Assembly: GCA_029551925.1 (NCBI GenBank)
Contig: JAKPEO010000127.1
Location: 1-40,904, forward strand
From: a bacterium
GTDB lineage: Bacteria > JAGOBX01
Reading direction: 5' to 3'
Length of the DNA: 40,904 bases
In this document: positions 15,357-36,127 of the stretch, piece after piece
Position numbering within the stretch: position 1 is the first letter of the stretch
How the letters are laid out: every line of letters begins with the position of its first letter
The notes under the pieces: model-generated
What the model was told of the DNA's origin: nothing
What the model saw: the letters and a program-made list of their open reading frames with translations, nothing else
The model's database searches: none
Position numbers and translations under genes: made by a program

Positions 15357-18191
15357 TTAGAAATTATATTTTACTTCTACTCTATAATTATTCTCGATGT
15401 ATCTGCTAGTGGAATATGGTTTGTAATTTTCATCTGTATATTGATATTTTGCAAATACGGATAAATCAGCATTATGTTTGTATGATACAGAATATGAAAT
15501 TTTATCAACAAATTTATCTTGATTAGCCGAAGAAGCGGGATCGTTTCTGTCTGTATTTGAAAATTTTTTGATGCCGTATTCGTATTTTACACCATTAATG
15601 AAATTTTTGTATTTGTTGCTTAATTCGCAAGCCATAAGCATATCGCGATAAGAATACGGAGCCGCATTATAATAGTTTTTATGTTCTAATTGCCAAGATA
15701 ATTTTATCGGCACTTGCTTGATTAATGAATTGTCTAATGCCACAGCGAAAAAATTTTTCTTTTCGTCGTTTGGAGCATTAGTAGATTCGTCGTATTTATA
15801 GTCGCGATTAAAGTTTAATGTGAATTTTGTTGAAATCGGCTGAACATTGAAATTTAAAATATGGTCGTAAATTTTTTCGGTTTTATCAGAACAATTTAAC
15901 GCGCACCATTCCAAATCTAATTGATATGAAAATTCATAATTAACTTTTAGTGGTAGTAATGTCTTTGTCGTTATTTTAGCAGTTGAACCGGTTTTTGATG
16001 AAGTTGAGCCGTCTAAATTATTTTTCCAATATTCATATTTATAGTCCAGACCATTAATTCTAAAAAGTTTTTCTGATTTGCGAGAATGTCTTAAAGTATA
16101 TGTCCAAGTTCTTTTACCGCCGTCGCTGCCCTGATCTCCGCCTTCTAAATACCAATTGCCAGTGATAGTTTTGACTTTTATATTAGCGTCAATATCATTT
16201 TCTTTCAGCCATTTGTCAGCATAGTTGTAAAAGAAATTCGGCAGCATAAATTTCCAATCGCTTATATTCAATTTGTAATTCAAATCAGCTTGATATGATT
16301 TATCGCTTATTGAATTTTCGCTGTCATTAATATCATCGTCATAATAAGTCCAGCCGTGTTCGAATGATAATTTTAAATTTTTCAAAATTTGATAATTGCC
16401 GTCAAATCCGAACGCCGTATTTCGTTTTGCTTTAGTCGAAGTTGTATCTACTTCCGCTGAGTTATCATCCTCTTCAATATAAACAGAAGATAAACCCAAT
16501 TCTAATTTGTTTAATATGCTAGTCCTATAATTTAAGGCAAAAGCATATTGCAAATATTGGCCAGATTCATAATTATTTTCATTTTTTTCTTTTGGCTGAT
16601 TTTTATTTAATGCTTCTTTGGTTATGCCAGCGGCAAAAGTAATAATATTATTTTTGAAGATTTTTGATTCTTCTAATGAATTATAAAATTCTTTGCTCAT
16701 TGACCGCGATAACTTGTAAATATCCGCTTCTTGCTGAGATTGTTTTAAAATATTATCTAATAAAAATTCGCCGCCTATACCGAATTCTACAGACGGATGC
16801 TTTACTAACTCGCCAAAATTTTTAGTTGAAAATTTACCGATATTTAATCTGAAATTATTATGAGAAATACTTGCTTTAAATTCATCGAAGGTTACGCCAT
16901 CCCAACGATTGCGAAAATATTTTACGCTACTTTGCACAGTATAATCGCCGATTTTATTTTGATACGCTAAATTAAAATCAAAATTTGCGCCGGGTACTGG
17001 ATTTGTCTGCGCTGTTGATGATTTTTTGTCTTTTCTCTCGAATACAGTTGTAGAATTAAATTTTGATTTGCTATAACTTTTTGCCTGTATTTCGGCTTCG
17101 CGGCGCATTGTTTCTATTTCGCGTTTGCGCAATTCTTGCGCAGCTAATAAACTTGCAATTTTCGATATTTCGATTGGCAGCGCTTCGCGTTCATTTGTTT
17201 TTAGGATTATTTGCTGGCTAATATAACCCTTGACATTATTATCAATAAAATTAACTATATCTATCGGTTCTTTGGATTTTAGTTCTGGATTGAATCTAAT
17301 AAATTTATCATAAGGTTCTTGCGCTTTATCTTTTTTGTCTGATAGCATATAAGCGCAAGCAATCAAACCAGTTTTGTTTACTTCAAAAAATTCGTTTTTA
17401 TCGGTTTCTAATTTGTTTAAAATTGCTATTGCATCGCTATAATTTTTTAAATGTATAAGATTTATTGATTTTAAAATGTCCATTTCAATAGATGGCAAGT
17501 TCATTGTTTGATTAGCCAGCGTGTATTCTTTGTATTTCGATAAAATTATTGCTAATAAAATTTTTGTCTGTTCATCTGAAAAATCAATAGAAATAATTCT
17601 TTTTGCTTTTTCGATAAATTCGTTTTCTTTTGCTAATATGAAATCAGTGATTGCCGCAGCTTTTAAAATCGTGAGATTAAATGGATTTAACTGGAGTGCA
17701 TTATCAAAATTTAAACCAGCGCGCGCATAGTTTTTTTGTTTAAAATAACACAAACCAATATTGTATATTGTCGGATAATGTTTCGGATTTTTTTCTAAAT
17801 ATAATGAATAGTATTTTATTGCGTCTTCATATTTTTCTTTTTTAAAATGAAAATTGCCTGCATCAAAAAGCGAATGATTTTTTATTGTTTTTAATTTTGC
17901 GCCTAATCTTATTTTATCGAATACTAATGGATTGACTTTTGCTAATGATTGTTTTTCTTCGACTTGAATAATATTGAAATAACCAATCTTTTGTTCGTTT
18001 TCATAAACATAAACAATACTGCCGGAATATATCCCGTCTTTTGCGCCGATGTTTAAAATTAAATCATTTGTCTCTTCTAAGTATTTTATTACTTTTATTT
18101 CGGTGAGTTCATCTTGCTGTTGAGCATTAATATATGGCAAGAATATTAGTTGACCAACAAAAATTATTAAACAACAAAAAAATTTTTTCAT
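15357..18191 (-). CDS. TPR outer-membrane beta-barrel protein
   Basis: A 944-residue exported protein. A signal peptide ends near INAQ. Residues 30-100 form a small beta domain (LNIGAKDGIYSGSIVYVY) like those of some envelope and flagellar proteins. TPR repeats cover about 105-320 (FDAGNFHFKKEKYEDAIKYY, IGLCYFKQKNYARAGLNF). A short charged helix (RELRKREIETMRREAE) precedes about 550 residues of alternating amphipathic strands ending VEVKYNF, with the terminal Phe used by the BAM machinery to recognise outer-membrane barrels. It is the strongest sign here of a diderm cell. Cargo or substrate is unknown; TPR plus barrel recalls secretion or export porins for polysaccharide. It leads the envelope operon, with TAGGG 9 bases before the ATG and a good promoter. 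Confidence 0.8.
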   Translation of the reverse strand: MKKFFCCLIIFVGQLIFLPYINAQQQDELTEIKVIKYLEETNDLILNIGAKDGIYSGSIVYVYENEQKIGYFNIIQVEEKQSLAKVNPLVFDKIRLGAKLKTIKNHSLFDAGNFHFKKEKYEDAIKYYSLYLEKNPKHYPTIYNIGLCYFKQKNYARAGLNFDNALQLNPFNLTILKAAAITDFILAKENEFIEKAKRIISIDFSDEQTKILLAIILSKYKEYTLANQTMNLPSIEMDILKSINLIHLKNYSDAIAILNKLETDKNEFFEVNKTGLIACAYMLSDKKDKAQEPYDKFIRFNPELKSKEPIDIVNFIDNNVKGYISQQIILKTNEREALPIEISKIASLLAAQELRKREIETMRREAEIQAKSYSKSKFNSTTVFERKDKKSSTAQTNPVPGANFDFNLAYQNKIGDYTVQSSVKYFRNRWDGVTFDEFKASISHNNFRLNIGKFSTKNFGELVKHPSVEFGIGGEFLLDNILKQSQQEADIYKLSRSMSKEFYNSLEESKIFKNNIITFAAGITKEALNKNQPKEKNENNYESGQYLQYAFALNYRTSILNKLELGLSSVYIEEDDNSAEVDTTSTKAKRNTAFGFDGNYQILKNLKLSFEHGWTYYDDDINDSENSISDKSYQADLNYKLNISDWKFMLPNFFYNYADKWLKENDIDANIKVKTITGNWYLEGGDQGSDGGKRTWTYTLRHSRKSEKLFRINGLDYKYEYWKNNLDGSTSSKTGSTAKITTKTLLPLKVNYEFSYQLDLEWCALNCSDKTEKIYDHILNFNVQPISTKFTLNFNRDYKYDESTNAPNDEKKNFFAVALDNSLIKQVPIKLSWQLEHKNYYNAAPYSYRDMLMACELSNKYKNFINGVKYEYGIKKFSNTDRNDPASSANQDKFVDKISYSVSYKHNADLSVFAKYQYTDENYKPYSTSRYIENNYRVEVKYNF

Positions 18192-18257: not shown

Positions 18258-20495
18258 TTATTTTTTTGAATAATATAAATTATTGTTTTTTATTGAATTT
18301 ATATTTTCACAGCCGGTTAATATCATTGTCTTTTCTAATTGCTTTTTCAAATTGTTTATATATAATTTTACACCTGCTTCGCCTCCGCCGATTGCATAAA
18401 ATATCAGCGGTCTGCCAATTAGTACTGCGCTTGCTCCGAGCGCTAATGCCTTGAATATATCTTCGCCGCTGCGAAATCCGCCGTCAATCAAAACAGGGAT
18501 TTTAGATGGCGTTACTGCTTCAATGATTTCTGGTAATACATCAATTGTTGCAGGAAGATTATCTATTGTTCTGCCGCCGTGATTTGATACAATTATAGCG
18601 GAAGCACCGGTTTCAACAGCAGCAAGCGCGTCTTCTTTTGACATAATGCCTTTTAAAATAAAGTTTAATTCTGATTTTTTGATAAGATATTTTAATTCTT
18701 CGATATTTCGGCTGCGCGTATTTTTTCCGCGTAGCAGCATTGTAGTAAACATCAAAGCGTCAATATCCATCCCAACAGTTTTTACGCCGTATTTTTTTGC
18801 AGCGTCAAATCGTTCTAATAATTCTCTATCATAATTTCGCGGTTTAAATATAGGTATTGCCCAACCGTTAAATTCGTTTATTGCTTGAAATATTATTTTG
18901 TATTTATTTGTTGAAGCGCCGTCTCCGACAAATGCTATTGTGCCGGATTTGCAAGCGCCGCCGATTACTATTCTTGCGTAATCTAATTCTGAAATGCAAC
19001 CTTTAAGATTTGTCTCCATACCAGTTACAGGAGCAATCATTATAGGCGAACTCAAAGTATAATCTAAAAATTTTATGCTTGTATTAATTTCATTTATTGA
19101 ATGTATAACTCGCTGTTTTATATTTATTTTTCGCAATGATTCATAATTATTTATAAATGTCTGACCAGTGCCGACCGAGCCGATCCCCGGCATCTGCCCA
19201 GCGCAAATTACGCCATTACAATTTTTACAAACTGCGCATATTCCATATAATTTTCTGCGCGCTGTGTGTTTAATTTGGTCATCTGTTATTTCCGGCAGCG
19301 GACCTACTGCAATATTGATATTTTTCAGCGCTTCTTTAACAGATGTTTCCGCTTCTTCTAATGTATTGCCAATTGCTATAATATTACCTGCTTTATCTAA
19401 ATTACAGCGCGGTTGTGATATTATGCTGCCTATTTCAACATTTAGAAAAATATTTTTTATATTATCGATATTTAGCGCTTTGTCTATGCCTTCGATTTTT
19501 AATACCATTCCGGGCGGGCACATTATCGCGCGTTCAATAGCGAAGCGTTTATAGTTAAATTTGCGGATATATGGTTTTATGCCTAATGCGATTTCAATAG
19601 CGTATTTGATAATATTTTCATCAGTAGAATAAGGAAAAGTATAAGCGGACATATAGCCGCCGGATAAACGTGCGGCAAGCTCGCCGATTTTTATGCCGTC
19701 AGGAGTAATTTTTATATCGCCTTTTACAGCGCCTGTGTTTATTCCCAAAGCATGCGCGCCTTTTAAAGTGACCGCTATTGCTTCGTCAATTATTTTTTTG
19801 TCAAGCTGCGATGGCATTGTATGACCAATTTCGATAAAATACGGTTCATTAGTAATAATTCTATCAGCTACGCCCCAAATTAGCGGCTTGTTGTCCCAGA
19901 CTAACATATCTATGCTTAATTCAGGACCGCTCATATATTGTTCAATAATTAATTCACCGCTCGGCGACGCTGATTTCGCTTCGCTAAAAGCTGTAAATAA
20001 TTCATTTTCGTTATTTATTTTTTTTACGCCGCGCGCGCCCATATTGTCAGATGGCTTTATTACTAATGGATAGCCGATTCTTCGCGCCCCGCGCACAGCT
20101 TCTTCAATTGTCCAAACACCTTGAAAATCTGGTGATGGCACTTTATGTTTTTTAAAAGTAGCGCGCATCTTGACTTTGTTGGTAGCCCGTTCGGCAACTT
20201 CAAATTTTAAGCCGGGCAATCCGAGCGCATTCGCTACTGCTGCAACTGTCATTGACGCGTCTGTTCCGACAGTAATTACTCCGTCTATCTTAAAATATTC
20301 AGAATATGATTTTGCTACGCGCACAGTGCCTTCTATATCTTTTGTGCTCATTACTATCGGAATGTCAGCGATTTGTAAACCAATAGCATTAGGATTGAAA
20401 TCTGTAACTATTGTGCGCAAACCCATTTCTTGCGCAATTTTTATCGCCGGCTCTTGCATTACACCAGCGCCGATTATCATTAATGTCTTTTTCAT
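18258..20495 (-). CDS. Fusion of ATP-grasp enzyme and FMN alpha-hydroxy-acid dehydrogenase
   Basis: A 745-residue cytoplasmic fusion. Residues 1 to about 400 form an ATP-grasp ligase of carbamoyl-phosphate-synthase/PurK-like build: a nucleotide-fold start (MIIGAGVMQEPAIKIA), VIKPSDNMGARGVKKI for the ATP lid, and GELAARLSGG (271-280) with metal and ATP ligands. Residues from about 416 form an FMN-dependent alpha-hydroxy-acid oxidase/dehydrogenase barrel: SPIMIAPVTGM, ILKGIMSKEDA, SNHGGR with catalytic His639, IDGGFRSGEDIFKALALGA and IGRPL. Between them lie Cys420, Cys423, Cys426 and Cys431 (C-x2-C-x2-C-x4-C), a pattern that could hold an iron-sulfur cluster or zinc. Both active sites look complete. 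The expected chemistry is ATP-driven amide or ester bond formation coupled to oxidation of a 2-hydroxy acid; substrates are unknown. Confidence 0.88.
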   Translation of the reverse strand: MKKTLMIIGAGVMQEPAIKIAQEMGLRTIVTDFNPNAIGLQIADIPIVMSTKDIEGTVRVAKSYSEYFKIDGVITVGTDASMTVAAVANALGLPGLKFEVAERATNKVKMRATFKKHKVPSPDFQGVWTIEEAVRGARRIGYPLVIKPSDNMGARGVKKINNENELFTAFSEAKSASPSGELIIEQYMSGPELSIDMLVWDNKPLIWGVADRIITNEPYFIEIGHTMPSQLDKKIIDEAIAVTLKGAHALGINTGAVKGDIKITPDGIKIGELAARLSGGYMSAYTFPYSTDENIIKYAIEIALGIKPYIRKFNYKRFAIERAIMCPPGMVLKIEGIDKALNIDNIKNIFLNVEIGSIISQPRCNLDKAGNIIAIGNTLEEAETSVKEALKNINIAVGPLPEITDDQIKHTARRKLYGICAVCKNCNGVICAGQMPGIGSVGTGQTFINNYESLRKINIKQRVIHSINEINTSIKFLDYTLSSPIMIAPVTGMETNLKGCISELDYARIVIGGACKSGTIAFVGDGASTNKYKIIFQAINEFNGWAIPIFKPRNYDRELLERFDAAKKYGVKTVGMDIDALMFTTMLLRGKNTRSRNIEELKYLIKKSELNFILKGIMSKEDALAAVETGASAIIVSNHGGRTIDNLPATIDVLPEIIEAVTPSKIPVLIDGGFRSGEDIFKALALGASAVLIGRPLIFYAIGGGEAGVKLYINNLKKQLEKTMILTGCENINSIKNNNLYYSKK

Positions 20496-20868: not shown

Positions 20869-20896
20869 TAAAGAAAAAACAAAATTTTGTCGATAA
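20869..20896 (+). promoter_or_regulatory. Sigma-28-type (flagellar) promoter for flagellin
   Basis: TAAA (20869-20872), then 16 bp, then GTCGATAA (20889-20896). The flagellar sigma factor consensus is TAAA-N15/16-GCCGATAA, so only one of the eight -10 bases differs. Transcription would start near 20903, giving a leader of about 210 bases before flagellin. Confidence 0.7.
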
Positions 20897-21114: not shown

Positions 21115-23211
21115 ATGCAATTTTCTATCCGTAATAATGTTGGGTCTTTGTTTGCTCATCGACAATTAACAATTAATATGACTGGTATTACTAAAAGTCA
21201 GCAAAAATTAGCCAGTGGTTTGAAAATCAATAATGCCGCAGATGATGCTGCTGGGTTAGCAGTTAGTGAAAAATTACGCACACAAATTCAAGGGTTAGAC
21301 CAAGCGTCGAAAAATGCGCAAGATGCTATTTCGATGATACAAGTTGCAGAAGCAGGATTGGAAGAATTAACAACTATTCTTCAAAGAATGCGTGTTTTAG
21401 CGATACAATCAGCAAATGATACATTAACCAATGAAGACAGAAGGTTAATACAATTAGAAATTACGCAATTATTAAGTGAAGTAGATAGAATGCAAACAAC
21501 AGTGCAATTCAACACAAAGAAATTATTAACAGGCGAATATTCAGAAAAACGGAGTTGGAATGTTGTTGGTAATCCTATAAATTGCGTATCTAATGTGACC
21601 TCATATAAAATGGCAGGTCCAATATCTAATAGGTTAAATACACAGATTGGAAAATTAAATGATAATTCTATTGTTTTGTCTTCAACGCAAAACTGGAAGG
21701 AAGTAATGTATCGTGATGGAAAAAGCGAATTTACAGGCATAAATCAATACAGCGTTGACTATGAAAATGGTATAATACATTTTTCATCAGCGCCAACAAA
21801 TGTTCGAATAAATTACAATTATGGCGCTACAAATATTTCAGACGCAAGAATTGCAGTGCCAGTAAATTCCAAACCGATTGCTTCACAAATAGAGTTAAGT
21901 GAAAATTATACTGGTGTTTATAAATTAGGTGGCGCGATAATTAAACCTGGTAGTAATCCACCTGTATTAGCTGGTTATGGCGATATTAATATTGTTAATT
22001 TATTCGGTACCAGCGCAACTTCTTTAACTGCTGGTTTATCATTAGAAGAAGTAATTTTCAAAAATGGTGTAAGTGAATTTCAAAATAAAAATCAGTTTAG
22101 TATTGATTATGCAAAAGGTATAATTTATTTTGCAGATTATGAAGCAGCTGTGAATACAAGCGAGCCGTATAAAGACATTACAGGAGAAGTAATAAAATCA
22201 GTTGCTGAGAACTCTACGCCTGCGAAATTTTTCTTAAATCATAATTGGATTTCATCGAATGATAAATCATCTGTTGGCGAAAGCGGCGATACTTCGATAG
22301 TATTCAGCAATACAGCAGCGCCTGCTACCACCACCCGCACTATAAATGTTGATTCAAGCGGATTAACTAAATATTCATTAGGTTCAAGTTTAATAAGTAA
22401 TGGAGGCGGCGGAGTATTCGGAGTATTAGCTAAAAATGGCGATACTGGTGTAGTAACATTAGGTGGTGCATTAGTTGGCTGGACAGAAGTGGTATATAAT
22501 AATGGCGGTACTGAATTTAATGGCTTGACTGATACTTTTAGCGTAGATTATGAAACAGGCACAATACATTTTTCAAATCCAGCGCCAATTGGCGGAACAA
22601 TAACTTACGATATTTATACAAGCGCTGGCTTTAATAATGAAGTGACAGACCCAAGTTTGGTTCAGAATATGGGCGATTACTATGTAAATCATACAACTGG
22701 CGAAGTTACGCATTTAACATTAGATGGCGGAACAGTTGACTATACTTATCGCACAGGCGTAATGATAATGACAGAAATACAGGTTGGATTAATTGAATAT
22801 AATAATTTAGCATTTCAAATCGGAGCAAATGCATACCAGACATTAAATGCCAATATCGGTAAATTATCAACTCACGGCTTAAAAATTGATACATTAGCTG
22901 CAGGCTTAAGGGATTCGTTAGAAACGCGAGAAGGCGCAGAACGCGCAATAGAATTATTATCTAATGCAATTAATAAAGTGAGCGATACTCGTGCAAATTT
23001 AGGTGCTTACCAAAATCGTATAGAACATACTTATAATTTTATAGGTATATCTCGCGAACAGCAGCAGAATTCTGAAAGTCGTATTCGCGATGTAGATGTA
23101 GCATTAGAAATGACAGAATTCACTAAACAACAGATTTTAGCGCAAGTAAGTCAATCAATGTTAGCGCAAGCAAATATGATGTCGCAATTAGTATTGCAGA
23201 TGTTAAAATAA
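21115..23211 (+). CDS. fliC: Flagellin with beta-repeat variable region
   Basis: The filament protein of the flagellum, 698 residues, larger than most. Conserved N-terminal D0/D1 helices (1-140; LASGLKINNAADDAAGLAVSE at 32-52) and C-terminal helices (about 550-698; RANLGAYQNRIEHT, then DVDVALEMTEFTKQQIL) polymerise and are the export and TLR5-type regions. The 400-residue middle is surface exposed and holds three copies of a beta module: WKEVMYRDGKSEFTG...YSVDYENGIIHFS (about 194-225), LEEVIFKNGVSEFQN...FSIDYAKGIIYF (310-339) and WTEVVYNNGGTEFNG...FSVDYETGTIHFS (456-487), plus a partial one near 521-546. Promoter and folded leader are upstream; GGGGG lies 6 bases before the ATG. No second flagellar structural gene is in the window. 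Confidence 0.95.
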   Translation: MQFSIRNNVGSLFAHRQLTINMTGITKSQQKLASGLKINNAADDAAGLAVSEKLRTQIQGLDQASKNAQDAISMIQVAEAGLEELTTILQRMRVLAIQSANDTLTNEDRRLIQLEITQLLSEVDRMQTTVQFNTKKLLTGEYSEKRSWNVVGNPINCVSNVTSYKMAGPISNRLNTQIGKLNDNSIVLSSTQNWKEVMYRDGKSEFTGINQYSVDYENGIIHFSSAPTNVRINYNYGATNISDARIAVPVNSKPIASQIELSENYTGVYKLGGAIIKPGSNPPVLAGYGDINIVNLFGTSATSLTAGLSLEEVIFKNGVSEFQNKNQFSIDYAKGIIYFADYEAAVNTSEPYKDITGEVIKSVAENSTPAKFFLNHNWISSNDKSSVGESGDTSIVFSNTAAPATTTRTINVDSSGLTKYSLGSSLISNGGGGVFGVLAKNGDTGVVTLGGALVGWTEVVYNNGGTEFNGLTDTFSVDYETGTIHFSNPAPIGGTITYDIYTSAGFNNEVTDPSLVQNMGDYYVNHTTGEVTHLTLDGGTVDYTYRTGVMIMTEIQVGLIEYNNLAFQIGANAYQTLNANIGKLSTHGLKIDTLAAGLRDSLETREGAERAIELLSNAINKVSDTRANLGAYQNRIEHTYNFIGISREQQQNSESRIRDVDVALEMTEFTKQQILAQVSQSMLAQANMMSQLVLQMLK

Positions 23212-30107: not shown

Positions 30108-30902
30108 TTAAATTTCGCGCGGCGGATAATTTGTTAATTTTATATTTTTTATATTTTTGAGATTCGGCTCGTCGATATTTAGATATAATGTCTTTTGGAA
30201 ATCTAATGACTGATGTCTTGCAGATAAATTTTTGAAATATTCATAATTTTTGGAATAATAATTATTAGTTATTTTTATTTCAGTTTGCAATTTTAATTTT
30301 TCTTTTGTTTTTTGCGCTGCGCCGCGTAAATTTAGTTCGCCTGTTGAATTAAGTTTGGTAATCGTAAAAGAATTGTCTATATTATTAATTTCCAAATCTA
30401 TTAATAAATCTTTTTGCCTGAATTCAGGTATTTTAACGCCTACTAAGAAAATTATTGAAATTTCCTGCCAGCCGCTTTGTTCAGATACTTTTACATCATA
30501 ACATAAAATTTTAATTTTTTGATTTTTTAGGTTGTATATTAGTTTGCCATTCGAAATATTTATATTACCGAATTTTTGAGATATTGCGGCATTTTCAAAT
30601 TCAACAGATATAGCGCGGTTATCAGAAGACAGCAATTCCTGAATTTTAATTTTTGAAAAATCGCAGTTAATTTTTATAGGCATTTGTTGAAATACTAATT
30701 CTAAATTATGATGACGCAGCGCAAAATCAAGAATATTAATGTTTGCTTTATCGCTTGATATATTAATCCCGCGTTTTTTCAGCGTATTTGTTAAATACTC
30801 ACTAATTATTTGATTAGGTGGAAAGTAAAAATAAAGGGCTGTTATAATTATTAAAACGCCGAAAATTAGATAATATCGAAATTTTAGATTTCGTAACAGC
30901 AT
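30108..30902 (-). CDS. GspN-like protein of the type II secretion/pilus system
   Basis: A 264-residue inner-membrane protein: one N-terminal helix (YYLIFGVLIIITALYFYF), then an outside beta-rich region with AsmA-like strands (ISVEFENAAISQKFGNINISNG; TKLNSTGELNLRGA). The layout and its place at the end of a secretin operon fit GspN of type II secretion systems, whose role is not settled. The ATG at 30902 is preferred; a TTG two codons earlier is possible. It starts 9 bp after pilQ. Confidence 0.65.
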   Translation of the reverse strand: MLLRNLKFRYYLIFGVLIIITALYFYFPPNQIISEYLTNTLKKRGINISSDKANINILDFALRHHNLELVFQQMPIKINCDFSKIKIQELLSSDNRAISVEFENAAISQKFGNINISNGKLIYNLKNQKIKILCYDVKVSEQSGWQEISIIFLVGVKIPEFRQKDLLIDLEINNIDNSFTITKLNSTGELNLRGAAQKTKEKLKLQTEIKITNNYYSKNYEYFKNLSARHQSLDFQKTLYLNIDEPNLKNIKNIKLTNYPPREI

Positions 30903-30911
30903 CCACAAAAT

Positions 30912-33506
30912 TTAATATTCGAGAGTGTCAATATGCATAAGCTCTGTCTGTTCAGTTGCGCGATTGAGATAATCTTTTTCTTTGTCTGATATAATATTTG
31001 ATTTTGTAATAATTGTCGGAGTAATGAAAATTATAAGTTCTGTTTTTTTGATAGTAGTTGTGCGGTGCGCAAAGAATAAATTAAGAACAGGGATTTTATT
31101 AAGTATTGGCACGCCAGCATTAGAAGTAACAAGATTATTTTTGATTAATCCGCCAATCGCTATTGTATTGCCGTTTTCAATAACAATAGTAGTTTTCGCT
31201 TCGCGTTTGATTATATCCACTCCATCAGAAGTCAACACTGATTTTCGCGCTTCATTGACTTTTGGTGCGATTTCTAATGTAATATACGAATCGCTGTTAA
31301 TGCGCGGCAGCACTTCTAATTCAATACCTACTTCGCTACGGATTTGATTTCTGTAAATTGTGCCTGATTGCGATTCTGTGGTTTGCAAACCTGTGATAAT
31401 ATCATCAGAAATTTTTATTACTGCTTTTTGATTGTCTAATGTCGCTATTCGCGGCGAAGATAATAAATTTAGATTGCTGTTAGAATCCAAATTTTTCAAA
31501 AATAAATTGAATTGATTGATAGTTAATGTCCCGTAAGTTGGTTTCCAATTAGTTAAATTATAAGAAATAGGATTATCTACTTTTATATTTACATTTCCGA
31601 ACTGAGACCAATCAATACCGAGCGAATTGTCTTTATCCAATCCGACTTCTATAAATTTCGCTTCTATTAATACTTGCTTGACAGGCACATCTAATTTTTT
31701 TATTACTTCGTCTATTACTTGAAAATACGATAAAATATTGGTATTTATAATTAATGAGTTTGTTCGTTCGTCTATAACGATTCTAAAAAAGTTATTTTTA
31801 TGCGTCTTTAAAGCAGTATGCGTTTCTAATATTTTTTCTAATGTTTCTTTAACATTTGCGACTTTTGCGTAATTTAATGTATATACTTTTGTATGAGACG
31901 CTTCAATATCATTTCGCGTAGCTACATCGATTTTTTCTATAATATTTTCTATTTGCTCAACATATTCTTTTACACCTGTTACAATTACAATATTGATATT
32001 ATCGTCAAAATCTATGATGCCCGAACCGCTTGGAGTCAATCTGCTGATTACATTTTTCGCTGACGACGCTGTCATATATTTTAACTTTATTATTTTTGTC
32101 TCTTCAAAAAATTCGTTTTTCTTTTTATCCCATAATTCTTTTGAATCTAAATGTTTTATTACAGCATTAACTTTGTCAATGTATTCTTGTAAATCAGTTA
32201 TCATTAGTGAATTTGAAGACCGTAAAATTTCTATTGTGCCGTTTTTTGATAATATTGTCTTTATTGGTTTTGCCGCTTCTTCAACAAATGCAAATTGCAA
32301 TTTGTAGATTTTAGTAGTAAATGTATTCGGTAAATTTAATAATACTTGCGTAGGCGCTACTTTTATTATATTTCCTTCGATTAAATATGAATAACCATTG
32401 ACTTTTAAAATGCTGTCTAATGCATCTAATAGCGGAGTGTTTTTCAATGACACTGTTATCTTTGCTGAAATATCAGAACTTACAACAATATTCATACCTG
32501 TAGCTTGCGCTATTAAACGCAGGACATTGTGTATATCAGCGTCTTTTAGATCAAGTGTAATTAAATTTTGAGTATTGTGCGATTGTTCCTGCTCTTGCTT
32601 TTGTGGTATTGCAGACGGTGCAGATGAAGCAGCAGAAAGCATAACTGCCGTAGATGTTGTGGTTTGACGCGGTTGCTGCTGCTGAATTTTTTGCGATAAA
32701 TTATCGGATTTTATTTCTGATTTTTCTTGCTGGTCGATATTAGTTTTTTTTGAAGAAGCGGGTGTTTGCGGTTTTGGGACAATATCGATAATTTCTCTTT
32801 TTTTCGGCTCTTTTGCAGTTATCTCTTTATTTTCTGCTTGTTTTGGCGCTTGGTCTTTTGTTTGAATTTGTTGATTTTGCGGCTGTTGTTCCTCTGTTTT
32901 TAATATTGGCTGTTGTTCTTCAATTTTCTTTTCTTCTGGTTGTTTTAATTCGTTTTTTTTTTGTTCTTCTGGCGATTGTTCGGATTGAGTTGTTTGTTCA
33001 TTAAGATTTGAAGAAATTTCGTTCGGATTTTCTTTTGGCAATTCAGTTATTTTTTCTTCTTGATTCTTTTCAATTATTTGGCTGTTAGTATCAGATATTT
33101 TTTTTTGTTCGGAATTATCTAAAATTTGTTTATAAAAAATCACTGTTATTTTCTTTTCGTCTTTTATAACTTCGTATTTGCAATTATAAAATAAATCAAA
33201 AACCAAACGAGCGATAGTAGGTTTAAATTGTCCTAATCTTATTCTTTTTAATGGTTCAATATTTATTTCGTGCTTGCTATTTTTTTTTAGATTTTGCCAT
33301 TTTGCGTCAAAAAAATCTATCACGATTTTTTGAGTTTCTGATAATTCCAAAGTTTCAAAAATTATACTTTCCTGGAGATTCATTTCAAATGTTATTGTAT
33401 TATCAGCTTCATACCATTTAAAAGACGGCTTTAATGTTGCTGCTGTTAAAATACAAAAATTAAAAAATATAAAAATAATAGTTAAATAATATAACTTATT
33501 TTTCAT
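30912..33506 (-). CDS. pilQ: Type IV pilus secretin PilQ
   Basis: The 864-residue outer-membrane channel through which pili pass. Order: signal peptide (1-23); one AMIN domain (about 25-127), which binds peptidoglycan and marks PilQ rather than GspD; a disordered linker of about 180 residues rich in Gln, Glu, Pro and Lys (130-312); the STN domain (about 315-385; LDLKDADIHNVLRLIAQATG); two N domains; and the secretin barrel ending VPILNKIPVLNLFF and IIFITPTII. The linker is long for the family. GGGGAT lies 9 bases before the ATG. Genes before it encode the inner-membrane assembly platform. Confidence 0.93.
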   Translation of the reverse strand: MKNKLYYLTIIFIFFNFCILTAATLKPSFKWYEADNTITFEMNLQESIIFETLELSETQKIVIDFFDAKWQNLKKNSKHEINIEPLKRIRLGQFKPTIARLVFDLFYNCKYEVIKDEKKITVIFYKQILDNSEQKKISDTNSQIIEKNQEEKITELPKENPNEISSNLNEQTTQSEQSPEEQKKNELKQPEEKKIEEQQPILKTEEQQPQNQQIQTKDQAPKQAENKEITAKEPKKREIIDIVPKPQTPASSKKTNIDQQEKSEIKSDNLSQKIQQQQPRQTTTSTAVMLSAASSAPSAIPQKQEQEQSHNTQNLITLDLKDADIHNVLRLIAQATGMNIVVSSDISAKITVSLKNTPLLDALDSILKVNGYSYLIEGNIIKVAPTQVLLNLPNTFTTKIYKLQFAFVEEAAKPIKTILSKNGTIEILRSSNSLMITDLQEYIDKVNAVIKHLDSKELWDKKKNEFFEETKIIKLKYMTASSAKNVISRLTPSGSGIIDFDDNINIVIVTGVKEYVEQIENIIEKIDVATRNDIEASHTKVYTLNYAKVANVKETLEKILETHTALKTHKNNFFRIVIDERTNSLIINTNILSYFQVIDEVIKKLDVPVKQVLIEAKFIEVGLDKDNSLGIDWSQFGNVNIKVDNPISYNLTNWKPTYGTLTINQFNLFLKNLDSNSNLNLLSSPRIATLDNQKAVIKISDDIITGLQTTESQSGTIYRNQIRSEVGIELEVLPRINSDSYITLEIAPKVNEARKSVLTSDGVDIIKREAKTTIVIENGNTIAIGGLIKNNLVTSNAGVPILNKIPVLNLFFAHRTTTIKKTELIIFITPTIITKSNIISDKEKDYLNRATEQTELMHIDTLEY

Positions 33507-33509
33507 AGT

Positions 33510-34010
33510 TTATTTATCCCCGCTTTTTTTTAGTAATATCTCATAAAGTTTATCTTCATATTTTAATACTACTCTGTCATTTAAAATTTTTATTATGTTA
33601 GCGCCTAAAATATTATCGCCTTCTTTTACGATATTATCATTTATTATAGCATATCGCATTTTTTTTATGTCAACTATTCCAGTTAAAATTATATTTGAAA
33701 TATTAAATGCGGTTGGCTGCAAAATTTTAACTGTTTGTCTTTGACTATCGCTGCTTTTTGGCTTTTCGATAACAGTATAGACAAAAGGGTCTTTTAAATA
33801 TTGTATATTATTTTTAGGAGCAGCAGTATCAATATTGTCATTTATTTCCGGAATTGTAAAATTAGCGCGAGCATTCAATTTTGCCAATTCATCATTTATT
33901 TCTAATTTTATTGTTTGGGTGTTTGAATAATGACTGTAAAAATAATAAAACCACGATAAACAGATGATAAATATTAAAAAGTAAAATGTCGTTTTTTCTG
34001 ATGTATTCAT
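33510..34010 (-). CDS. pilP: PilP/GspC-like pilus assembly protein
   Basis: A 166-residue protein with one N-terminal membrane helix (FYFLIFIICLSWFYYFY) and a C-terminal beta domain (ILTGIVDIKKMRYAIINDNI, then KEGDNILGANIIKILNDRVVL) that matches the homology region of PilP and GspC. That domain links the inner-membrane platform to the secretin periplasmic ring. PilP is usually a lipoprotein; this one has a membrane helix instead, as GspC does. It sits between pilO and pilQ, the usual place. Confidence 0.78.
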   Translation of the reverse strand: MNTSEKTTFYFLIFIICLSWFYYFYSHYSNTQTIKLEINDELAKLNARANFTIPEINDNIDTAAPKNNIQYLKDPFVYTVIEKPKSSDSQRQTVKILQPTAFNISNIILTGIVDIKKMRYAIINDNIVKEGDNILGANIIKILNDRVVLKYEDKLYEILLKKSGDK

Positions 34011-34013
34011 ATT

Positions 34014-34550
34014 TTATTCCGTAGTATATGCAATGAATTTAATATTTAAGTTAATTGTATTTGTTTCATTTATTTTTTTTAATTCAATTTCATTCGCTTG
34101 AATTAAATATTTATTTTTGTTCACTAATTCAAAGAACGAAAGTATATTTTTGAACGATCCTTGTAAATTTATATTTAAAAAATTATTGATATAATAATCC
34201 GAATATTTTACAGATTTTCCAGTATTCGATGAAATTATCTTTGCGCCGCTGTTATTAGCCGCAGCATAAATATCTGAAATAATATTTAACAATTCACTTT
34301 TGTTTTTTATTAAATAAAATTCTAATTCTTTGTTTTTTTCTTTATTAATTAAATATTCGATTTTTTTTTCGAGCAGTTCTGCATATTTTATTTTTTCATT
34401 TGCGATTTCTGTTTTTTGCTGGATTAATAAATTTTTTTGGTCGTCGATTTTTTTTAAAGCAGCGTCTAATATGTATAATTTCCATAAAATCAAAAAAGAT
34501 ATTGTTGAGACAATTACAAGTTTTTTTAAATCTTTCGGAGATATTTTCAT
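34014..34550 (-). CDS. pilO: Pilus assembly protein PilO
   Basis: A 178-residue inner-membrane protein: short cytoplasmic start, one helix (LVIVSTISFLILWKLYIL), a coiled coil (QKTEIANEKIKYAELLEKKIEYL is within it) and a ferredoxin-like outside domain (NIFLNINLQG-type strands; SFFELVNKNKYLIQANEIEL). It pairs with PilN to carry the platform. It overlaps pilMN by 4 bases, with AGAGGCG 9 bases before the ATG. Confidence 0.85.
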   Translation of the reverse strand: MKISPKDLKKLVIVSTISFLILWKLYILDAALKKIDDQKNLLIQQKTEIANEKIKYAELLEKKIEYLINKEKNKELEFYLIKNKSELLNIISDIYAAANNSGAKIISSNTGKSVKYSDYYINNFLNINLQGSFKNILSFFELVNKNKYLIQANEIELKKINETNTINLNIKFIAYTTE

Positions 34551-36127
34551 AATAATTGCGCCTCTTTAAGCGTAGCATTTATTTGAAATCTCATTAATTC
34601 TAAGTTTCTGAATGTTCCGCGGCTGCTGTTTTCTAAATTTATAGAATGGAATAATCCGCTGCTGTCTAATTTTAAAATGAATTCAGGAATAATCTGAACA
34701 TCAGCGCTCCAGCCCTCAATAATAATTTCAGTTGGAGAATTAAAATCTTTAGTATTTATATTTATTCTTGTTAATGTTATGCCGTTTGGCGTAGAATTTC
34801 CGATCATCGTTAATATTTTTTGATAATTATAATCTTTTTTTTCTATTGCTGTTTTGAACTGTTTATTTATGGTTACTATTGTTTGCGCAGCAAGATAATT
34901 TGATAATTCTTGATTTTTATTCTTTATTTCATTTAGTAATTCATTGTATTTTTTTGTTGATTGGCTGTAAATATTGGAAATTAACGACGGTAATATCAAC
35001 ATAGTTATTATTAATAATCCGCCAGCAATTTTATTTTTTAGCGAGCCAAATAAAAAAACTTCATCAGACGATAATGTAATACTCGATTTTTGGAATTTTG
35101 TTAAATCAATAATATTTTTCTTTGATAAATTTTGAATTACTGAAATTAGATGTTTTTTTGTAAGCGGAATATCAGCTGATATATTTGGAAAATTTAATTT
35201 TGTAAATTCTTTGTTGAATTCCGTTGAGAACATTTTTTGAAGTCCGTTGATTTCGCTAAATTCGCCAAACATATAAAAGAATTCTATTTGATTTACTCTG
35301 AAATTACTTAAAATATATGCTGTTGTTTTTTTTGTCTCGTTGATAATGTTTGTAAGACTATTTTTTAGAGCATTAGAAAAGTTTATGTATTTGTCAGTAG
35401 TTTCAGAAGGAGTAGAATACGGCAGAATATGAATATTGCTTATTGTTTTTAGCAATTCATTAGTATCATCGATTTTATAATAATTTTTGATAATATCTTT
35501 TAATTGTTCGGCGGAATTTTCTAATACCCTTTTATATTTTATTACGCCGTTTTCTAAATAAGATATAACAACACTTTCAAATTCCATATCAAACAATAAA
35601 ACATTTTTATTTGCAAATAATGAGTGGTGGTATTTATCTAATAATTCTTCGATTATAGTTTCTTCTGAAATTATCAGGTCGATTTTATAATTGTATTGTT
35701 TTAAGACAGAGTTGATAATATCAATTATTTTTCGCGTTACAATTTCAATTTTGAAAATTTGCTTTTTTTGAGCATCCTCGATTATCGCATTTAATAGTTT
35801 GCAGTTCCACCGAAAATTATCTAATTTGTTAGCGTATAATTTAGCAAGTTCCCAGTAAAGCGCATCGCTGTAATTTCGTGAAAAGGGGATTTTTACAATG
35901 CGCTGAATAACGATGTCTGCCCCTAAAATTACTGACGCTTGTAAATTAGAGTGGCTTTTAGGAATGCGATTTAAAGCATCTTGCAATTGCTGTGTTAAAT
36001 CAATATCTTTATTAAGATTTTTTGAATAATGATAAAGATATTTGTCGTTTTTTAATATTGCTATCTGAATATTTTTATTTGATAAATAAATTATTAGTTG
36101 ATTGCCTTTATTAAAAAATAAATTCAT
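34547..36127 (-). CDS. PilM-PilN fusion protein
   Basis: A 526-residue fusion. Residues 1 to about 345 are PilM, an actin-like ATP-binding cytoplasmic protein (VLLFDMEFESVVISYLENG; IEFFYMFGEFSEINGL). Then comes one membrane helix (about 366-387) and a PilN-type outside domain (coiled coil, then NGITLTRININTKDF and IIEGWSADVQIIPEFI). In most pilus systems these are two proteins joined through the short PilN N-terminus; here they are one chain, as in GspL of type II secretion. It heads the operon. The promoter leaves almost no leader before the ATG. Confidence 0.88.
   Translation of the reverse strand: MNLFFNKGNQLIIYLSNKNIQIAILKNDKYLYHYSKNLNKDIDLTQQLQDALNRIPKSHSNLQASVILGADIVIQRIVKIPFSRNYSDALYWELAKLYANKLDNFRWNCKLLNAIIEDAQKKQIFKIEIVTRKIIDIINSVLKQYNYKIDLIISEETIIEELLDKYHHSLFANKNVLLFDMEFESVVISYLENGVIKYKRVLENSAEQLKDIIKNYYKIDDTNELLKTISNIHILPYSTPSETTDKYINFSNALKNSLTNIINETKKTTAYILSNFRVNQIEFFYMFGEFSEINGLQKMFSTEFNKEFTKLNFPNISADIPLTKKHLISVIQNLSKKNIIDLTKFQKSSITLSSDEVFLFGSLKNKIAGGLLIITMLILPSLISNIYSQSTKKYNELLNEIKNKNQELSNYLAAQTIVTINKQFKTAIEKKDYNYQKILTMIGNSTPNGITLTRININTKDFNSPTEIIIEGWSADVQIIPEFILKLDSSGLFHSINLENSSRGTFRNLELMRFQINATLKEAQLL

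Follow-up and report, generated by a model that had tools for sequence, protein, structure and literature searches.

A fusion of an ATP-grasp ligase with a four-cysteine FMN 2-hydroxy-acid dehydrogenase-like domain, and its predicted role in flagellar-glycan biosynthesis

In this study, we describe a protein that joins an ATP-grasp ligase and an FMN 2-hydroxy-acid dehydrogenase-like half in one chain, encoded in a 40,904-nucleotide stretch of bacterial DNA (the window). The fusion is a real, widespread and uncharacterised enzyme, and it probably makes an unusual acid group and attaches it to a sugar that coats the flagellum; its assignment to a pathway is a good and testable prediction. More specifically, we tentatively propose, with slightly less than even confidence, a bifunctional enzyme of flagellar-glycan biosynthesis that performs both a redox step and a ligation on a 3-deoxy sugar acid. 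The pathway assignment draws on both folds, most of the catalytic residues, co-occurrence with an HpcH/HpaI-like (HpcH-like) gene, operons with PseG, SpsF and Maf genes, and the presence of flagellin in every fusion genome tested. The glycan role is supported, in addition, by a solo form of the ligase found beside SpsF and PseG-methyltransferase genes and by precedents from Shewanella (SfmE) and Treponema denticola.

In the window translation the fusion is one unbroken open reading frame (Table 1). Pfam recognises ATP-grasp_4 (PF13535, 56.4 bits against a cut-off of 27, residues 140–281) and LAL_C2 (PF18603, 54.2 bits against 29.4, residues 324–397), followed in the C-terminal half by FMN_dh (PF01070, 231.9 bits against 24.9). 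An AlphaFold model computed with 81 sequences has a mean pLDDT of 90.8 and a pTM of 0.61, so that the mutual placement of the two halves is uncertain. In this model, residues 1–399 resemble the L-amino acid ligase 3vot (Z 41.5, 2.4 Å, 24% identity) and residues 403–743 resemble human hydroxyacid oxidase 1 (HAO1, 6w45; Z 38.2, 2.4 Å, 317 residues). The best 80 genome matches are all full-length fusions of 709–781 residues, 43–74% identical. Together these data bear out the fusion called in the initial annotation, and the 80 independent full-length copies rule out a chance fusion, a frameshift or a chimeric contig. That annotation also knew of no named enzyme with this order of domains; our literature search likewise gave no published account of the fusion and, of the 73 NCBIfam families matched, none among the best 25 scored above its own cut-off as an equivalog.

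Table 1. Features of the fusion gene and of the adjoining flagellin gene in the window.
Feature	Position	Strand	Basis
ATP-grasp / Cys4-FMN fusion gene, 745 aa	18258..20495	-	ORF, Pfam, 80 full-length homologues, AlphaFold model
ATP-grasp ligase half with LAL_C2, residues 1-400	19296..20495	-	Pfam, fold match, invariant residues
FMN 2-hydroxy-acid dehydrogenase-like half, residues 403-743	18267..19289	-	Pfam PF01070, HAO1 fold match
C-x2-C-x2-C-x4-C motif, residues 420-431	19203..19238	-	Invariant in 81/81 fusions; present in standalone relatives
Flavin active-site segment K615...H639-G-G-R642	18570..18653	-	Aligned to glycolate oxidase
Flagellin gene with long variable insert, divergent neighbour of fusion	21115..23211	+	Flagellin_N, Flagellin_C (Pfam)
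FliA (sigma-28)-like promoter TAAA-N16-GTCGATAA, before flagellin gene	20869..20896	+	Direct sequence match

By family and predicted fold, the N-terminal half is an ATP-grasp ligase of the L-amino acid ligase type. Across 81 fusions (here and below, the 80 homologues plus the window protein), K107, M110, R111, K147, E185, E192, E272 and R276 are invariant. Of these, K107, K147, E185, E272 and R276 are candidate ATP and metal ligands; the residue two past E272, which is Asn in many ATP-grasp enzymes, is Ala in all 81. The fold and the LAL_C2 domain are common to BL00235 (3vot) and its LAL family, which synthesise dipeptides and are unfused, whereas the present protein carries a flavin half.

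That flavin half is, by profile and by the whole-barrel fold of the model, a member of PF01070, although its active site is only partly canonical. Tyr24, Gln127, Tyr129, Asp157, Arg164, Lys230, His254 and Arg257 are residues in the numbering of glycolate oxidase. In the alignment, D579 corresponds to Asp157, K615 to Lys230, H639 to His254 and R642 to Arg257, and the fusion shares these counterparts and the entire barrel with glycolate oxidase, HAO1 and lactate oxidase. Those enzymes have the Tyr24 loop, Tyr129, Gln127 and Arg164, whereas the fusion has a Cys loop about 13 residues longer, R553, K551 and no residue aligned to Arg164, respectively. Tyr24, Tyr129 and Arg164 are carboxylate and catalysis residues of FMN 2-hydroxy-acid oxidases. 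The earlier view that both halves keep their active-site motifs is only partly right for the flavin half: it holds for D579, K615, H639 and R642, but not for the counterparts of Tyr24, Tyr129, Gln127 and Arg164, which are changed or missing. Among the 81 fusions, the counterparts of K615 and R642 are present in all and that of H639 in 71, the other ten having Arg or Lys.

The four cysteines (C420-x2-C423-x2-C426-x4-C431) are likewise invariant in 81/81 fusions, which settles the matter of their conservation among relatives, and they are not spaced as in a classical ferredoxin site. The initial annotation had placed them exactly at the joint between the halves. The motif is there, but since the flavin fold starts at about residue 403 in the model (the HAO1 match spans 403–743), it lies inside the N-terminal segment of the oxidase fold rather than in a separate linker. 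A special role as a joint is also ruled out by standalone Cys4 FMN relatives (e.g., L010 and L174–L178), whose own N-terminal end bears the motif, as had been stated, and which share the SNHGGR motif with the fusion but, unlike it, have no ATP-grasp half. Standalone proteins of this kind (L173–L178 and L183–L189) have about 290–355 residues, with shorter divergent ones among them, and we found no function assigned to them.

Fusions occur in Spirochaetota (including Leptospiraceae and Brevinema), Nitrospinota, Coatesbacteria, Lindowbacteria, Hydrogenedentes and unnamed groups, and they form an old family. The closest relative of the window (L018, JAGOBX010000032.1) is labelled Candidatus Dependentiae, a label that we consider doubtful; its genome is 3.8 Mb, with 12 flagellin matches. 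Among 295 sampled Spirochaetota genomes, the fusion is intact in about 83 and degenerate in 23. The ten fusions that lack the active-site histidine (L081, L084, L086, L087, L088, L090, L091, L094, L095 and L097) still have the complete Cys4 motif and the residues of the FMN site, and their flavin half has diverged faster (35% identity to the window protein vs 46%). In one clade of degenerate fusions (L144:6021-8174, L145:6009-8219, L146:6042-8192 and L147:6027-8195) the length is kept and the ligase half is still 53–58% identical, while the cysteines and catalytic residues of the flavin half are gone; judged from these sequences, that half has become a pseudo-enzyme domain that stays in position. 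In a tree of ATP-grasp domains, whose root and some deep branches are unsure, two His-less fusions fall together with the degenerate ones (support 100), and the solo ligases form one group (98).

Clustering of neighbouring genes gave a single recurrent partner, the HpcH-like protein, adjacent and co-directional in 10 of the 80 fusion loci, or in 12, from several phyla, when two open reading frames first missed are included. Pfam HpcH_HpaI was confirmed for it, its nearest solved sequences (YfaU, HpaI and GarL) are 2-keto-3-deoxy sugar acid aldolases, and the E and D that bind metal in this family appear conserved. Its AlphaFold model has a PEP/pyruvate-superfamily fold, to which SbnG and pyruvate kinases match equally well, so that no single fold identity emerged. 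In 60 bacterial genomes, the HpcH-like profile was found in five of six with the fusion and in none of 54 others (p ~1e-6, kinship ignored). In a separate set of named fusion genomes, it was found in 27 of 50. Within Spirochaetota, the corresponding counts are 43/83 for intact fusions vs 9/208 for other genomes, in a test that again ignores kinship, and 0/23 for degenerate fusions; some of the spirochaete matches are weak relatives. About half of the intact-fusion genomes are without an HpcH-like gene, which argues against the proposed pathway. The HpcH-like protein need not stand in for NeuB, because NeuB was found in 23 of 24 genomes; NeuB is common in general, and it is absent from a Nitrospina genome (G090).

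Sugar-pathway genes accompany the fusion in several phyla, although direct links to PseG, SpsF or Maf are confined to a minority of loci. The clearest operon (L049) encodes an SpsF-like cytidylyltransferase, PseG (166.4 bits against a curated equivalog cut-off of 153.55), the HpcH-like protein, the fusion and a Maf/MptE-like protein. Another (L063) has an SpsF~PseG fusion, the HpcH-like gene and the ATP-grasp/FMN fusion; in a third genome (L080), fusion and Maf genes lie together, with SpsF, PseG and HpcH-like genes on another contig. The window's own genome has a PseG-HpcH operon on contig C26 and an SpsF-like gene on C29. The PseG model matched four of six fusion genomes vs 6 of 54 others. 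In most spirochaete fusion loci the neighbours are uninformative, as are, as operon partners, those of the fusion in the window (TPR/beta-barrel proteins and flagellin). One of these, 66 bases after the fusion on the same strand (15357–18191), is a 944-residue secreted TPR and beta-rich protein, and no family was found for its C-terminal 550 residues. Elsewhere in the window (30108–36127) there is a type II secretion/type IV pilus-like cluster (secretin, PilO, PilN and GspB-like).

Some spirochaetes, probably Treponema-type as judged from gene content, encode solo ATP-grasp orthologues of about 520–560 residues, without the flavin half and 41% identical to the family. In 10 of 12 spirochaete loci, the solo ligase comes after SpsF and PseG-methyltransferase proteins; spiro-SPASM (TIGR04321) lies upstream of this set, and genes for amidase and GerMN lie downstream of it. 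At one locus (L149), SpsF, PseG and methyltransferase form one protein. The tie between the ligase and the sugar pathway therefore does not depend on the flavin half. The ligase of this TIGR04321-type operon is orthologous to that of the fusion (hhalign E 5e-140) but, unlike the fusion, has only a tail of about 130 residues and no flavin barrel. The end of this tail shows weak similarity to the final helices of the flavin half (probability 8.5%, E 0.004, in one hhalign comparison), which is only suggestive of a possible remnant. Since some lineages retain the ligase while their flavin half has decayed or gone, the pathway does not require that half in every lineage, a point against the proposed scheme. 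The order spiro-SPASM/unknown/SpsF/PseG-methyltransferase/ATP-grasp/Amidase_3/GerMN is conserved in L139:1432-9759 and similar spirochaete loci; the second gene encodes about 320–400 residues, often with an 'IPTTFN' motif, and is without a Pfam match.

The flagellin encoded beside the fusion is a candidate glycan acceptor. Its insert of about 400 residues contains at least three related segments (WKEVMYRDGKSEFTG.., LEEVIFKNGVSEFQN.., WTEVVYNNGGTEFNG..). The promoter-like sequence in front of this gene is one mismatch away from the FliA consensus; no FliA promoter was found facing the fusion in the window or, with a strict pattern, before the fusions of the 80 loci. Flagellin is present in 55/55 fusion genomes tested, about 15 of them non-spirochaete; in the spirochaetes this is weak evidence, because nearly all of them swim.

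The glycan of T. denticola flagellin reportedly (Kurniyati, 2017) consists of mono-N-acetyl pseudaminic acid with a 2-methoxy-4,5,6-trihydroxyhexanoyl group at N7. Such an acyl group is an O-methylated 3-deoxyhexonic acid. It would be the expected output of an aldolase reaction between pyruvate and glyceraldehyde, reduction at C2, O-methylation and ATP-dependent amidation, and the calculated mass of the whole glycan is 274.116 + 176.068 = 450.185. The T. denticola glycan measures 450.2 Da and is essential for filament assembly (PMC9481697). In Leptospira biflexa, whose family Leptospiraceae is among the fusion carriers, FlaB1 shows glycan-like densities on Ser/Thr, and the glycans appear to glue the sheath to the core (PMC13144727). 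The nonulosonic flagellin glycan of Shewanella, which bears an additional group of 236–264 Da, depends on NeuB, a methyltransferase and an ATP-grasp gene. In S. oneidensis, flagellin is not fully modified without the ATP-grasp protein SfmE (SO_3265); deleting it reduces the glycan mass by slightly less than does removal of the sugar (PMC3765264), which is what one would expect of an added acyl group. By description, SfmE is an ATP-grasp_4 protein like the ligase half; unlike the fusion, it has 412 residues and no flavin half.

We propose that an HpcH/HpaI-type pyruvate aldolase, encoded elsewhere, would make a 2-keto-3-deoxy sugar acid, whose C2 keto and hydroxy forms the flavin half would interconvert, reduction to the 2-hydroxy acid being the likeliest direction. 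A metal or an Fe-S cluster through which electrons enter probably sits in the Cys4 site, adjacent to the flavin. The ATP-grasp half, as its fold implies, would use ATP to turn the acid into an acyl phosphate and may couple it, through an amide bond, to the free amino group of a UDP-4-amino-sugar or a pseudaminic-acid-type nonulosonic acid; a PseG-like hydrolase, a NeuB-type synthase, an SpsF-like cytidylyltransferase and a Maf transferase would complete the sugar and its transfer to flagellin. The initial suggestion of redox and ligation around a 2-hydroxy or 2-oxo acid is partly supported, since it agrees with this anatomy and with the fact that a keto-acid-aldolase-like gene tends to occur alongside the fusion. 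Oxidation as the direction and the iron-sulfur relay that it raised stay conjectural, and the likely flagellar-glycan setting had been missed. In its boldest form, which we regard as rather doubtful, the proposal amounts to an undescribed two-step class, with Fe-S/FMN reduction of the aldolase-made 2-keto-3-deoxy acid and ATP-grasp N-acylation of a pseudaminic precursor in the same chain.

The pathway and the ligase role could both be right with the flavin half working on something other than the acyl group, that is, at another sugar redox step or as a scaffold or regulator, with structural zinc in the Cys4 site. A pocket that departs from the canonical one (Y129→R, Q127→K, no R164), the loss of His with all four cysteines retained in 10/81 fusions, and the degeneration of the flavin half in one clade and its replacement in another beside a ligase still 53–58% identical all speak for this; we nevertheless consider it unlikely, as His is retained in 71/81 and the aldolase-like gene accompanies intact flavin halves and none of the 23 degenerate ones.

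About equally improbable is decoration of another surface glycan (LPS, exopolysaccharide or S-layer), with flagellin co-occurring simply because these phyla are motile. SpsF/PseG/NeuB-type genes also serve the legionaminic acid of the Bacillus subtilis spore crust (PMC7439481), a polysaccharide pyruvyl transferase adjoins one fusion (L048), and the Nitrospina fusion has neighbours that look ATP-citrate-lyase-like by eye. Set against this are the Maf genes that adjoin the fusion in L049 and L080, the flagellin gene beside the fusion in the window, and the non-spirochaete genomes within the complete flagellin count. Very unlikely, in our view, is a stand-alone enzyme of 2-hydroxy-acid metabolism (e.g., dipeptide-like or depsipeptide formation) with coincidental glycan neighbours: the closest solved ligase does make L-amino acid dipeptides (3vot) and a CimA/LeuA-like gene lies upstream in L042, but the same glycan genes recur across phyla and in the solo-ligase spirochaetes.

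All together, the fusion introduces a large, uncharacterised Cys4 flavin family. The literature examined names no gene for the acyl chain of the spirochaete flagellin glycan; the fusion, the HpcH-like aldolase and the PseG-methyltransferase are candidate enzymes for it, and their chemistry can be checked by mass spectrometry. If the proposal is true, a two-step class of enzyme combining Fe-S/FMN and ATP-grasp chemistry would build the unusual acyl chain of spirochaete flagellins.
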